DNA of 64,000 nt, from assembly GCF_015350995.1 (NCBI RefSeq), contig NZ_JADKRW010000006.1, positions 62,001 through 126,000 of the forward strand. The letters are read 5' to 3'. The notes beneath the pieces are model-generated. The model did not search any database. It saw only the letters and a list, made by a program, of their open reading frames with translations, and was not told the DNA's origin. The stretch is from Curtobacterium sp. VKM Ac-1393. GTDB taxonomy: Bacteria > Actinomycetota > Actinomycetes > Actinomycetales > Microbacteriaceae. Position numbers and translations under genes: made by a program. Shown here in pieces: positions 10,889 to 59,357 of the stretch; the stretch's first letter is position 1; every line of letters begins with the position of its first letter.

Positions 10889-10934
10889 ACGGACGGGAGG
10901 CCCGTGGCGGATCCGCCACGGGCCTCCCGTCCGT
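10889..10934. terminator. 46-bp perfect palindrome (family A), bidirectional terminator
   Basis: The 23-base arms are exact reverse complements about 10911/10912 and contain GGACGGGAGGCCCGTGGCGG. It lies between convergent genes ending at 10858 and 10947. The same GGGAGGCCCG core recurs in palindromes at 28939, 35597, 44624, 53835 and 58980. Confidence 0.85.
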
Positions 10935-10946
10935 CTCGGTGACCGT

Positions 10947-13508
10947 CTACCGCACGGTGACGGTCTTCGTGCCGAAGCTCTTGTAGGTGCCGCTCGGCAG
11001 GTCCTGGAAGTAGACGCGCACGGTGTGCTTGCCCGCCTTCAGGCCGGTGAACTTCCGCGAGAGCCCGACGTCCGAACCCCAGTCCGGGTGCACGGCCTGC
11101 ACGTCGGTGCGGGCGGCGTTCGCCGTGCCCGGGGCGACCGCGACGCCGTCCAGGTGGATCTTGTACTGCACCGGGTCCCAGACGTCCGGGTCGATCGCCC
11201 AGCCGGCGACCGTGATGGTCCCCGTACCGCCGGTGGCCGACTCGTACAGGCCCTTGACCGAGCCGGTCTTGCCGGTCTTGCCCGTGGTTGGCGGATCGGT
11301 GACCGTGACGTTCTTCGTGCCGAAGCTCTTGTAGGTCCCGCTCGGCAGCTCCTGGAAGTACACGCGGACGGTGTGCGTGCCGGCGCTCAGCTCGCCGATC
11401 TTCAGCGCGAGCCCCACGTCGGAGCCCCAGGCGGGGTGGACCGCCTCGACGTCCGTGCGCTTCGCGCTCGCGGCACCCGGTGCGATGGCCACGCCGTCGA
11501 CGTGGATCTTGTACTGCACGGGGTCCCACACGTCGGGGTCGATCGCCCAGCCCCGCACGGTGGCGCTGTTCACGCCGCCGGTGACGGACTCGAACGCGCC
11601 CTTGACCGAACCGGTCTTCCCGGTCTTGCCGGTGGTGCCCGACGGGTCGGTGGGCTCTCCCGACGCGGCCGCGGTGACGGTCACGGTCTTCGTCCCGAAG
11701 CTGACGTACTTGCCGCTCGGCAGGTCCTGGAAGTACACGCGGACCGTGTGCTTGCCGGCCGTGAGCCCGGTGAGGCGGAGCGTCAGGCCGACGTCCGAGC
11801 CCCAGGTCGGGTGCGAGGCCTCGACGTCGGTGCGGGTGGCGTCGGCGCTCCCGCTGTCCGTGCTGACGCCGTCGACGTGGATCTTGTACTTGACGGGGTC
11901 CCAGACGTCCGGGTCGATCGCCCACCCGCGCACGGTGGCCGTGCCGACGCCGCCGGTGACCGAGTCGTAGGACCCGCGCACCGCTCCGGTCTTGCCGGTT
12001 TTGCCGGTCGAGGGGGCGTCGACGGTCACGGTCTTCGACGCGACCTTGACGTAGCCCGTGCCGGGCTTGTCCTGGGTGTAGAGCGCCACGGTCCGCTTGC
12101 CGGGCGTCATGCCGCCGATGGTCTTCGAGAAGCCGACGGTGCTGCCGACGCCCGGGTAGACGTTCGCGACGTCGGTGCGCTTGAGGTTCGCGGTGCCGGT
12201 CGCGCGGCTCGTGCCGTCGACCAGGATCTTCCACGGGCCCGGCTTCGCCGAGTCGGGGTCGAGCACCCAGCCGGTCGCCGTGATCGTGCCGACGCCGCCG
12301 GTGACGGTGTCGAGCGCACCCTTCGGCGCCTCGCTGGTGACGGTGCGGGTGTAGCAGCCGAGCAGGGTGTTCGACCCCTTGCCCTGGTTGATGGCGTAGC
12401 TGCAGACCGAGTGCTTGCCGAGGCTCAGACCGGTCAGTTCCGTGTCGAAGCCGTGCTTGAGGTTGTTCGCACCGAGGGTGGCCGACAGGTCGGGACGGTT
12501 CACGTTCGCCGTGACCGTCTTCGCGCCCTCGCCATCGACGTACAGCGCGACGCGGAGCGCGTTCGACGTGTCCGGGTCGGCTGCCCAGCCGGTGACCGTG
12601 ATCGACGAGGTCGAGCTGGCCGTGACGGCGTCGACGTTGCCGTACGGGTTGCCACCACCGGTCGCCGAGCCGAACCAGTCGGTGTACATGCGCCAGAAGT
12701 TGCGGTTGCCGTACGCCGAGCAGCTGTCACCGGTGCCGTAGAGGTTCGACATCGCGGCGGTGTTCGGGGTGTACGGCGTGTAGATGTACAGCCCGGCGGT
12801 CGCCTGGTTCTGGATGTAGACGGACTTCCGACCACACGCGGCGTTCGGGTTGAGCAGGATCGAGTTGGTCCGGCCCGCCTGGTACGCCCACGAGGTCGGC
12901 GATGCCTGGTACCGCTTGAACTGCAGGGCCGCGGCGTAGACCTGCTGGCCGAAGCCGAAGTACGCCGGGTCGCATGGGGCGGTGTCCGGGCAGGCGAAGC
13001 CGGTGGCGTGCAGGTACATGTACGACGTCGGCGAGGACGTCGTGACGATCCCCTGCTCCTTCTGCAGGAGCACGAGGAGCACCTTCTGGCTGATCCCGCA
13101 CGCGGCACCGACCTGGGCGATCATCGTCGCGGCGGACTTCGTGCCACCGGCGATGGCGCTGCACCGGCCGGAGACGGCGCCGATCCCGCTCATCTTCTGC
13201 GAGAAGTCCTTCAGGCAGGCGGGCCCGCTCGACGACTTCCGGCAGTTCGGGGCGACGCTCGACAGGAACGACTGCACGGCGGCGGCGTTCATCGCCGAGC
13301 CGTTGTAGAAGTTCGCGTCGCTGATGATGTTGCCCGGGTCGAAGTCGCCCGCGACCGCGGCCGAGGCGGACTCGGTCGTGGTCTGCTCGGACAGCATCGT
13401 GCCGAACGTCAGGCCGCTGACGGCGACGGCGAGTGCGGCGACGAGGGCGAGGGACGTCCGGAGGGGCCGGCGACGCCGCCGGTCCGGTTCGGTCTGGATG
13501 GACTGCAT
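10947..13508 (-). CDS. Secreted repeat protein: hemagglutinin/lysozyme-like domain plus five GWAxDPD repeats
   Basis: 853 residues. Residues 1-50 are a Sec-type signal (RRRR, hydrophobic stretch, ASA sites). Residues about 55-280 form a Cys-rich domain containing VLLVLLQKEQGIVT, resembling actinobacterial proteins called hemagglutinin and possibly lysozyme-like. From about residue 290 five repeats of roughly 105 residues follow. Each has a GWAIDPD motif, an IHVDG motif, RTDVEA, HPAWGSDVGL, and KHTVRVYFQDLPSG. The last three are nearly identical and are joined by TGKTGKTG linkers. The ATG at 13508 overlaps the upstream lipoprotein stop (TGATG) and has GGAGG in front. The same repeat occurs in the GH6 protein at 33786. 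Function unknown; a wall- or glycan-binding surface protein is an inference. Confidence 0.8.
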   Translation of the reverse strand: MQSIQTEPDRRRRRPLRTSLALVAALAVAVSGLTFGTMLSEQTTTESASAAVAGDFDPGNIISDANFYNGSAMNAAAVQSFLSSVAPNCRKSSSGPACLKDFSQKMSGIGAVSGRCSAIAGGTKSAATMIAQVGAACGISQKVLLVLLQKEQGIVTTSSPTSYMYLHATGFACPDTAPCDPAYFGFGQQVYAAALQFKRYQASPTSWAYQAGRTNSILLNPNAACGRKSVYIQNQATAGLYIYTPYTPNTAAMSNLYGTGDSCSAYGNRNFWRMYTDWFGSATGGGNPYGNVDAVTASSTSSITVTGWAADPDTSNALRVALYVDGEGAKTVTANVNRPDLSATLGANNLKHGFDTELTGLSLGKHSVCSYAINQGKGSNTLLGCYTRTVTSEAPKGALDTVTGGVGTITATGWVLDPDSAKPGPWKILVDGTSRATGTANLKRTDVANVYPGVGSTVGFSKTIGGMTPGKRTVALYTQDKPGTGYVKVASKTVTVDAPSTGKTGKTGAVRGSYDSVTGGVGTATVRGWAIDPDVWDPVKYKIHVDGVSTDSGSADATRTDVEASHPTWGSDVGLTLRLTGLTAGKHTVRVYFQDLPSGKYVSFGTKTVTVTAAASGEPTDPSGTTGKTGKTGSVKGAFESVTGGVNSATVRGWAIDPDVWDPVQYKIHVDGVAIAPGAASAKRTDVEAVHPAWGSDVGLALKIGELSAGTHTVRVYFQELPSGTYKSFGTKNVTVTDPPTTGKTGKTGSVKGLYESATGGTGTITVAGWAIDPDVWDPVQYKIHLDGVAVAPGTANAARTDVQAVHPDWGSDVGLSRKFTGLKAGKHTVRVYFQDLPSGTYKSFGTKTVTVR

Positions 13509-28924: not shown

Positions 28925-28938
28925 GCAGGGCAGTCGAC

Positions 28939-28990
28939 CGGGAGGCCCGGGGTGCGTTCCCGACGTCGGGAACGCACCCCGGGCCTCCCG
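28939..28990. terminator. 52-bp perfect palindrome (family A variant), terminator after rmlD
   Basis: 26-base arms meeting at GAC|GTC, with outer ends CGGGAGGCCCGGGG and its complement. Outer sequence matches the other family A palindromes, but the inner half is different. It lies 15 bases past the rmlD stop and before an independent GT4 gene. Confidence 0.85.
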
Positions 28991-29114
28991 TCTCGGTCCC
29001 CTGCCGCACCCCGCCGGCCGCGCTCAGGGGGCCACCCGTCTGCCCTGGTAGTGTCGGGCAGCCGGGCGCCGGGCCGGTCCTCGGCCCCATCACCACGACG
29101 AGGAGACCAGCACC

Positions 29115-35447: not shown

Positions 35448-35596
35448 GGACACACTCCTCGAACGGTCGACTCCGGACCGTTCCATGGGAACACGGGCCG
35501 CCGCGGGCCACCACCCGCCAGTGCGGGTGCCACCCGAGCGGGTGTCGGCAGTCCGGGGGACGCGCCGGTCGCCCTGGACGCGACCCACGGACGGAC

Positions 35597-35630
35597 GGGA
35601 GGCCCGTGGCGGCGTCGCCACGGGCCTCCC
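35597..35630. terminator. Family A palindrome downstream of purK
   Basis: GGGAGGCCCGTGGCG (35597-35611) pairs with its complement (35616-35630) around GCGT. It lies 93 bases past the purK stop and 150 bases before the GH6 start, and should isolate the two units. Confidence 0.75.
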
Positions 35631-35722
35631 CCCACCGACACGGCCGGACCGCCGCTGGCGCGTCGCTCCGGTACCGGCGGCGTGGGCCCAGTCCGCCACC
35701 CGTCGCGTCGACGGACCCGGTG

Positions 35723-44623: not shown

Positions 44624-44673
44624 TGACGGACGGGAGGCCCGTGGCGGTGTCGCCACGGGCCTCCCGTCCGTCA
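44624..44673. terminator. Family A palindrome, 23-base arms, bidirectional terminator
   Basis: TGACGGACGGGAGGCCCGTG and the rest of the arm (44624-44646) pair perfectly with 44651-44673 around GTGT. Between convergent genes ending at 44595 and 44698. Arms are almost identical to those at 10889. Confidence 0.85.
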
Positions 44674-53635: not shown

Positions 53636-53680
53636 TTTCCGGGGGTGTTCGCGGCGGGCGTTCCGGTGGGTCGTCGACTC

Positions 53681-53794: not shown

Positions 53795-53834
53795 GTCAGC
53801 CGTCGGCGCTCGCCCGGCGCGACCAGCTGGCGGC

Positions 53835-53870
53835 CGGGAGGCCCGTGCCGGCCCCGCACCGCGCCTCCCG
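53835..53870. repeat. Family A palindrome, loop-containing subtype
   Basis: CGGGAGGC (53835-53842) and GCCTCCCG (53863-53870) around a 20-base loop. About 80 percent identical by eye to the 36-base core of the copy inside maf (58984-59019). Confidence 0.7.
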
Positions 53871-53916
53871 TCCGGCGCGTGTCCCGTCCACCGCCGCGCG
53901 CACTTCCCACGGACCC

Positions 53917-58562: not shown

Positions 58563-59357
58563 ATGCGTCTGTACCTCGCGAGTACATCCCCCGCCCGCCG
58601 AGCGCTCCTCGCCCAGTCCGGGATCGAGCCCGTGCTCGTGTCGCCCGGGGTCGACGAGGACGCCGCCGCGTCCGCAGCATCGGCATCGCTCGGCCGCGAC
58701 CTGACCGGCCCGGAGCTCGTGGCGCTGCTCGCCGTCGCGAAGGCGTCGGCCGTCGCGGACGCCGACGTCGCCGGCTCGCCGGTCGACGGGTTCGTGTTCG
58801 GCGGCGACTCCGCCTTCGAGGTCGACGGGCGCCTGTACGGCAAGCCCCACGACCCGGCGGTGGCCCGGGAGCGCTGGCGGCAGATGCTCACCGCCGGCGG
58901 CGGGACGCTGTGGAGTGGGCACTGCGTGATCGATCGACGACGCGACGACCGGCGCCGCGACGTGGACCCGGCCACGAGACGGACGGGAGGCCCGGATACG
59001 GCCCGCCCCGCGCCTCCCGTCCGCAGCCTGGTGACGTCCCCTGCCGGCGTGCCGGAGCTGGGGGAGGTCGCGCCCGGCGGGTCGACCCTGGCCGCCCACG
59101 GCGACCGCGTGGTCGCCGTGGACAGCGCGGTGCTGACCTTCGCCGACGACCTGTCCACCGACGAGATCGACGCGTACGTAGCGACGGGCGAGCCGCTCGA
59201 GGTCGCCGGTGCGTTCACCATCGACGGGCGTGCAGCGGCGTACATCACGCGCATCGACGGCGCCCCGTCCGCCGTGGTCGGGTTGTCCCTGCCGGTGCTG
59301 CGGTCGATGCTGCTCCGAGGGTTCGGCGTCCCCTGGCACGAGTTCTGGTCACTGTAG
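58563..59357 (+). CDS. maf: Maf/HAM1-type nucleotide pyrophosphatase with a repeat-derived insert
   Basis: 264 residues against about 200 usual. N-terminal MRLYLASTSPARRALLAQSG with the Maf signature, FGGDSAFEVDGRLYGKPHD carrying the catalytic Asp, and C-terminal ATGEPLEVAGAFTIDGRAAAYI. Between GHCVID (about 119-124) and VAVDSAVLTFADDLS lies roughly 55 residues of Arg/Pro-rich sequence, of which residues 140-154 are encoded by a family A palindrome. Maf proteins hydrolyse non-canonical or uridine/thymidine triphosphates. Start ATG as given. The insertion is in frame, so the enzyme may still work. Confidence 0.9.
   Translation: MRLYLASTSPARRALLAQSGIEPVLVSPGVDEDAAASAASASLGRDLTGPELVALLAVAKASAVADADVAGSPVDGFVFGGDSAFEVDGRLYGKPHDPAVARERWRQMLTAGGGTLWSGHCVIDRRRDDRRRDVDPATRRTGGPDTARPAPPVRSLVTSPAGVPELGEVAPGGSTLAAHGDRVVAVDSAVLTFADDLSTDEIDAYVATGEPLEVAGAFTIDGRAAAYITRIDGAPSAVVGLSLPVLRSMLLRGFGVPWHEFWSL
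58980..59023. repeat. Family A palindrome inside the maf coding sequence
   Basis: CGGACGGGAGGC (58980-58991) and GCCTCCCGTCCG (59012-59023) around a 20-base loop. All other family A copies are intergenic. Length and phase keep the maf frame open. Confidence 0.8.

Follow-up and report, generated by a model that had tools for sequence, protein, structure and literature searches.

An in-frame palindromic repeat in the maf gene of Curtobacterium, a likely old insertion and landing site for small palindromic repeats

The maf gene of Curtobacterium sp. VKM Ac-1393 carries in frame a copy of a 38-bp palindromic repeat, here called family A, and this copy is most probably (at roughly 70%) an old insertion whose arms have been kept as a DNA motif, likely as a landing site for small palindromic repeats. 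It is proposed that family A inserted in frame into a Maf loop ahead of the radiation of the crown of the genus, into a protein that may well tolerate an insert which is predicted to be disordered and contains no invariant residues. The two half-sites (C[GT]GGAGGCNCG and the inverse of it) have since been kept at the nucleotide level, whereas stem pairing has fallen to what shuffled partners give. Their most likely use is as a motif at which further small palindromic repeats land: one such repeat (element B) lies in a half-site of maf in two lineages and in one of an AdoHcyase-like gene, another (element C) lies in the remnant of family A in maf of a third species, and a DNA-binding protein or a recombinase presumably recognizes the half-sites. 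Positions refer to the window, that is, the whole stretch of 64,000 nucleotides that was analysed (Table 1).

Family A in the genome and in the genus

Family A was defined by a core of 38 bp in which ACGGGAGGC and GCCTCCCGT enclose 20 bases, some variants being longer; the arms are fixed over 9 bp and the inner arms are variable. The strict pattern was found at 133 sites of this genome and the reversed pattern at none, and matches were present in 66/66 congeners, with 4 in G002, 12 in G043, 13 in G044 and 27-206 in the others, the reversed pattern being found in none of these 66 genomes. A search of 147 other Microbacteriaceae genomes from 84 other genera returned no match, and within the genomes searched family A is specific to Curtobacterium. 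In 846 kb of this genome, for which genes were called with a simple gene finder of our own, 26 strict copies were counted, whereas ten resamplings from a first-order Markov model gave 0 every time. The idea that GGGAGGC is a generally over-represented 7-mer was rejected, this word ranking 20/42 among 7-mers of the same composition.

The 46 intergenic copies in the 846 kb comprised 20 in convergent, 24 in tandem and 2 in divergent gaps, whereas among all gaps of at least 60 bp (n=419) there were 69 convergent ones, 248 tandem ones and 102 divergent ones, so that the copies favour gaps between convergent genes and avoid those between divergent genes. Among the tandem copies obtained under a stricter arm rule, 21/25 lay closer to the stop than to the start. 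The core is flanked on both sides by GACGG / CCGTC, which are symmetric and could pair, and a longer common element, with GACGCGACC further out, is present in individual copies and weak in the position table. When 63 flanks at gene ends were tabulated, no T-run, as looked for in an intrinsic terminator, followed the family A copies. Judged from sequence and placement, the intergenic copies are best read as putative gene-end hairpins. Mobilization of the family by a RAYT was rejected, as the Y1_Tnp (PF01797) transposase was absent from 66/66 genomes in a search that was positive in 5/14 control genomes. With the search covering this one class, no transposase could be linked to family A or to the elements B and C described below.

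It had been suggested in an earlier note on this DNA that the element can spread into genes, and the maf copy bears this out for family A in one case; however, loose matches within called genes of the 846 kb numbered nine, or five with the stricter arm rule, and by our judgement maf alone combined family A arms with the 38-bp length. Entry of family A into genes looks rare, and it is element B that enters them frequently. The copy at 53835, which the same note had singled out as nearest to that in maf, is indeed the best of the four window copies compared (30/38 versus 29, 28 and 26), but a copy identical at 33/38 positions lies elsewhere in the 846 kb.

The intergenic site at 10893 was followed into other species, and a copy was present in 4/5 congeners read; in 3/4 of those with a copy the inner arms were of another type and still self-pairing. 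The four congeners with a copy are G042, G048, G032 and G016, and where the inner arms differ the interior looks as if swapped as one block. Chimeric, half-and-half copies of family A exist as well.

Table 1. Positions in the window of the maf features and of family A and family B elements
Feature	Position	Strand	Remarks
Intergenic family A copy, convergent genes	10893..10930	.	
54-bp long-interior variant of family A	28938..28991	.	13 nt past called stop codon
Family A copy, right end running into family B element	35595..35632	.	
Family B element, ~60-66 bp, in family A arm	35625..35695	-	contig 97625-97695
Intergenic family A copy, convergent genes	44630..44667	.	
Family A copy named in the earlier note	53834..53871	.	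30/38 identical to maf copy
maf (predicted nucleotide pyrophosphatase family), 264 aa	58563..59357	+	ORF; PF02545; PDB matches
Region coding for the genus-specific insert/loop, ~residues 126-183	58938..59111	+	alignment and predicted loop; edges approximate
Family A palindrome in frame in maf	58980..59023	+	38-bp core 58983-59020
Left half-site ACGGGAGGC	58983..58991	+	holds conserved rare codon GGA; B-bearing arm in two other species
Right half-site GCCTCCCGT	59012..59020	-	holds conserved rare codon CCT

The maf copy, its protein loop and its age

By similarity, the product of the host gene can be assigned to the Maf nucleotide pyrophosphatase family: the ORF matched PF02545 with a score above the family cut-off (E value 2.5e-36), and seven PDB sequences, every one of them named Maf or Maf-like, although its score against NCBIfam TIGR00172 (111.1) stayed below the cut-off of 117.15. 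The palindrome, CGGACGGGAGGCCCGGATACGGCCCGCCCCGCGCCTCCCGTCCG, is an imperfect one of 44 nt with outer arms perfect over 12 bp, and it lies in frame 0 of the ORF, where it codes for RTGGPDTARPAPPVR (residues 140-154), in agreement with the earlier note's recognition of an in-frame copy of a palindrome family. The size of the surrounding insert, which had been put at about 55 residues, depends on the proteins chosen for comparison; relative to the Maf proteins of three Frigoribacterium loci (225-229 aa, with the start chosen by us, versus 264) it amounts to only ~35-39 residues, and it is longer when set against proteins of Microbacterium and Corynebacterium.

An AlphaFold2 model, built on a protein alignment (A1) of 33 sequences of which 17 were from outside Curtobacterium, had a mean pLDDT of 85 with values <50 at residues 138-149, and it placed the insert in a loop that joins strand 113-124 to strand 174-179. 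The insert contains no invariant Maf column of this alignment, and since the loop is in addition predicted to be disordered, the enzyme may be expected to tolerate it. In other genera that could be aligned (12 of 42 loci read) the loop is shorter or different and holds no palindrome, and it is prone to expansion there too, for example through GGVGGAG repeats at L078.

A maf match was found in 66/66 congeners, and 64 of them, that is, all except G065 and G050, were readable across the insert. In G065 (L073) and G050 (L074), the contigs holding the 3' part of maf start about ten residues past the palindrome, as if this repeat had broken the assembly. A plain palindrome was present in 57/64 readable congeners (55 aligned, plus G008 and G010), one with element B in its left arm in 2/64 (G006, G054), both arms around a longer interior in 2/64 (G043, G044), and a palindrome remnant together with element C in 1/64 (G024), leaving 2/64 (G001, G002) without palindrome. 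The claim that a repeat element has become part of Maf is consistent with this distribution, and the finding that would have spoken against it, namely the same insert in the relatives without any palindrome, is not what the congeners show, 57/64 being plain and two lacking any arm.

In a tree of the locus, obtained by a quick search from maf without the insert (flanks and core) and rooted on three Frigoribacterium loci (G008 and G010 are not on it), palindrome carriers made up 57/58 rows of the crown. G001 is nested inside the crown and has thus lost the palindrome, and the presence of B in G006 and G054 corresponds to 2 changes. The basal rows G002, G024 and G043/G044 are long and of unsure placement, and the insertion was for this reason left unplaced relative to the G002 branch. 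As shown on this one-locus tree, the maf palindrome appears to be older than the 58-row crown. A recent insertion datable between strains is disfavoured by the genus-wide presence, and alleles of close strains, by which the earlier note had hoped to date the event, cannot serve this purpose for an insertion that would predate the crown. No target-site duplication was definable in maf when the flanking loop was compared across congeners, because the loop varies freely on both sides.

Conservation of the half-sites and competing explanations

When a rare-codon column was defined as one in which a codon of <10% background use dominates at >=85%, only 2 of 194 columns in maf qualified, and these are GGA in the left arm (57/60 rows; background 5.5%) and CCT in the right arm (57/58 rows; background 2.0%). 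The three glycine rows without GGA have GGG and belong to the B-filled G006 and G054 and to G024. The valine codon that follows is GTC in 55/55 valine rows, another residue standing there in 6 rows, and for comparison, in 102 four-fold columns the commonest codon has a median share of 0.72.

These half-sites could be kept because the palindrome acts as an RNA hairpin, causing transcription pausing or termination or slowed translation (attenuation), a role that intergenic copies may have at gene ends, a reading that we hold to be unlikely. The maf palindrome is predicted to fold with an MFE of -43.4 kcal/mol over 81 nt (z -2.62 versus dinucleotide shuffles), and a hairpin function is in line with the orientation of the intergenic copies (20/46 convergent, 2/46 divergent, and, under the stricter arm rule, 21/25 of the tandem ones closer to the stop) and with their Watson-Crick pairing, which at 0.886 exceeds the 0.766 found with shuffled partners (n=38). 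However, the same measure gave 0.740 for 55 maf 38-mers, chosen for GGAGG + CCTCC (the remaining 6/61 being those with B, C, an expanded interior or, in G002, no palindrome), versus 0.760 with shuffled partners, and the stability of the maf fold was ordinary when compared with synonymous recodings (mean z -0.47; z < -2 in 6/61 species). These results disfavour an RNA hairpin as what has been kept in the maf copy, and the predicted folds and pair counts give no support to a stem that reduces maf expression, a possibility raised in the earlier note. With the nucleotides kept and stem pairing decayed, the half-sites would behave like a sequence motif rather than an RNA hairpin.

Sequences of the AdoHcyase-like gene, which were fetched from 30 species (L331-L360), bear on the same question. 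Only 2 of its 417 columns are rare-codon columns, with GGA in 26/30 species (the other 4 being B-filled) and CCT in 30/30, and the second half-site is inverted and located ~590 nt downstream of the first. It is mainly this conservation of half-sites between which no local hairpin is possible that makes a DNA motif the preferred reading, ahead of an RNA fold. The main point for retaining the idea of pairing is that the variable base N of the two half-sites was complementary in 14/21 scorable pairs (shuffled mean 6.8; p 0.0004, with relatedness not removed), a covariation that fits pairing and would also fit exchange between half-sites. The two half-sites surround the NAD domain region of this protein.

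Continual rewriting of the maf arms by gene conversion from other copies in the genome is a still less probable alternative. The inner arms of another type in 3/4 congeners at the 10893 site are what conversion or replacement would give, but the inner type CCAGCTGG, found in 10/38 intergenic 38-mers, occurs in 0/55 from maf, and GTGGCGG or CCGCCAC, present in 18/38 intergenic ones, is nearly missing there (GTGGCGG 1/55, CCGCCAC 0/55), the maf interiors looking instead as if altered by point substitution. Selection on the peptide PGG...PPVR, with the codons being incidental, would account for Gly-Gly and Pro-Pro being kept amid a widely varying flanking loop, but we give it slightly less credit again, as the synonymous positions stay fixed on two codons whose background use is 5.5% and 2.0%, against the 0.72 median noted above, G001 and G002 do without the peptide, and disorder is predicted for the loop. 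That the palindrome arose by chance in a high-GC, Arg/Pro/Gly-rich loop, such as the one seen to expand in L078, is scarcely credible in view of the exact 38-bp family length, the 0 strict matches in 10 resamplings, the lack of the reversed pattern in 66 genomes and the fact that B and C insert there as they do in other copies.

Elements B and C, and comparison with known repeats

The reading of the maf arms as a kept DNA motif and likely landing site draws on the elements found within them. The extra piece of the G054 maf gene, of 74 nt, is a dispersed repeat, B, which had matches in 62/66 genomes at E <=0.001 and in 60 at 2e-12 or better, a strict 31-mer of it occurring in 53 copies in 28/66 genomes. 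Element B is ~60 bp long, has GPTPPVPDRRASGGPAVPVGRG as its usual reading frame and mostly codes for PTPPVPDRRASGGPAVPVGR, a near-constant peptide of 20 residues. When 30 loci were fetched (L301-L330), codon use was coding-like on both sides of B in 10/30 by our codon score, namely Maf (2), Mur ligase (4), AdoHcyase-like gene (2), a helicase-domain gene (1) and an opposite-strand gene (1), and further loci lay near the N-termini of OMP decarboxylase (twice), DHFR and an alpha/beta-hydrolase gene; these names rest on Pfam for seven ORFs and on likeness to those seven for the others. Thus occurring in frame in unrelated genes with a constant peptide, as do the Rickettsia-type elements, B is a family that often enters genes in frame.

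The left arm of family A was present at B in 9/30 loci by script and both arms in 8/30, a right arm being recognized by eye in three more, and B continues into AGGC at 21/30 loci; at 18/30 a full family A palindrome around B was not demonstrated, which counts against the proposed reading. In maf of two lineages B stands between CTGG and AGG of the half-site, and opposed half-sites lie next to B in 3 Mur ligase loci. The AdoHcyase-like gene allows filled and empty sites to be compared directly: in four of the 30 species (G000, G042, G015, G053) the left site reads CTGG + 60 nt + AGGC, the B piece amounting to 20 codons, and all 26 empty ones have GGAGG, no target-site duplication being seen by eye between the two states. 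B-like ends were found at the right site in G015, G056, G031 and G033 (4/30). Element C, the interior of the G024 maf insert (L291), is likewise palindromic and ~60 bp long; a search of four genomes returned more copies in G024 at 84-95% identity and relatives at 77% in this genome and in G012, and at L292 and L293, as judged by eye, a family A copy has C within its right arm.

A wider proposal, more tentative than the reading of the maf copy and somewhat short of an even chance, is that of a two-tier system, in which C[GT]GGAGGCNCG half-sites, kept synonymously in housekeeping-type genes as inverted pairs 20-590 nt apart, would dock 60-bp palindromic elements that code for a near-constant 20-residue peptide, in frame, in the loops and domain linkers of enzymes unrelated to one another. 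Of the half-site pairs seen in this analysis, the one in the maf palindrome is the most widespread.

We found no literature on a palindrome family of this kind in Curtobacterium or Microbacteriaceae. Among known systems, family A, being a short palindrome present in many copies, mainly intergenic and near gene 3' ends, corresponds to the REPs, which in excerpts of PMC3733652 are described as GTAG- or CGTC-tagged palindromes of 20-40 bp that are mostly intergenic and in some cases inside ORFs, adjoin 3' ends, mainly convergent or unidirectional, and include CGTC families without associated transposase genes. The list of phyla with tagged REPs in the same excerpts does not name Actinobacteria, although they do mention REP-like families without a tag in M. 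tuberculosis. In size and genomic placement family A is like the REPs; it differs from them by its 38-bp core with fixed 9-bp arms and variable inner arms, by having one coding copy across most of a genus with arms kept without pairing, and by the lack of any Y1_Tnp enzyme in the genomes. The GTAG or CGTC tag of REPs is unpaired and stands at one end; what was seen next to the family A core is GACGG / CCGTC on both sides. REPs are also reported to be targets of insertion sequences (PMC1525189); here too a palindromic repeat would be the target, but the incoming elements are ~60-bp repeats and not insertion sequences.

Rickettsia palindromic elements, according to the portions consulted of PMC10969869 and PMC2229807, measure 105-150 bp in Rickettsia and lie in frame in unrelated protein genes with the encoded peptide conserved. 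Element B is the closest likeness to these, in frame and with a conserved peptide, and differs in its length of ~60 bp and in that, at the loci that allowed comparison with an empty site, it lies within a half-site motif common to a second palindrome family. Measured by the same standard, family A has an intact coding copy, in our judgement, only in maf within the 846 kb, and the AdoHcyase-like gene, too, holds a pair of opposed half-sites. Bacterial MITEs such as ERIC/RU are small non-autonomous repeats, both intergenic and intragenic, that form in-frame fusions (passages of PMC2229807), and the elements described here are alike in these respects, except that target-site duplication was not seen. 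Protein-coding palindromic repeats are known mainly from Rickettsia and Wolbachia and as scattered intragenic REPs (PMC10969869, PMC2229807, PMC3733652).

Because filled, empty and nested sites all occur among the 66 species with sequenced genomes, insertions can be dated, the effects of selection on the peptide, on the RNA fold and on the DNA motif can be told apart, and a mover enzyme can be sought, and the conserved rare codons in enzyme genes are a warning that synonymous sites may be kept for non-protein reasons. Other repeats occur in the window besides those of families A and B. Between positions 53676 and 53988 a 36-nt repeat is present in three close copies, two of which have an internal palindrome around CGTACG, and positions 10954-12321 contain four direct repeats of 300 nt, the other three being 63-79% identical to the first.
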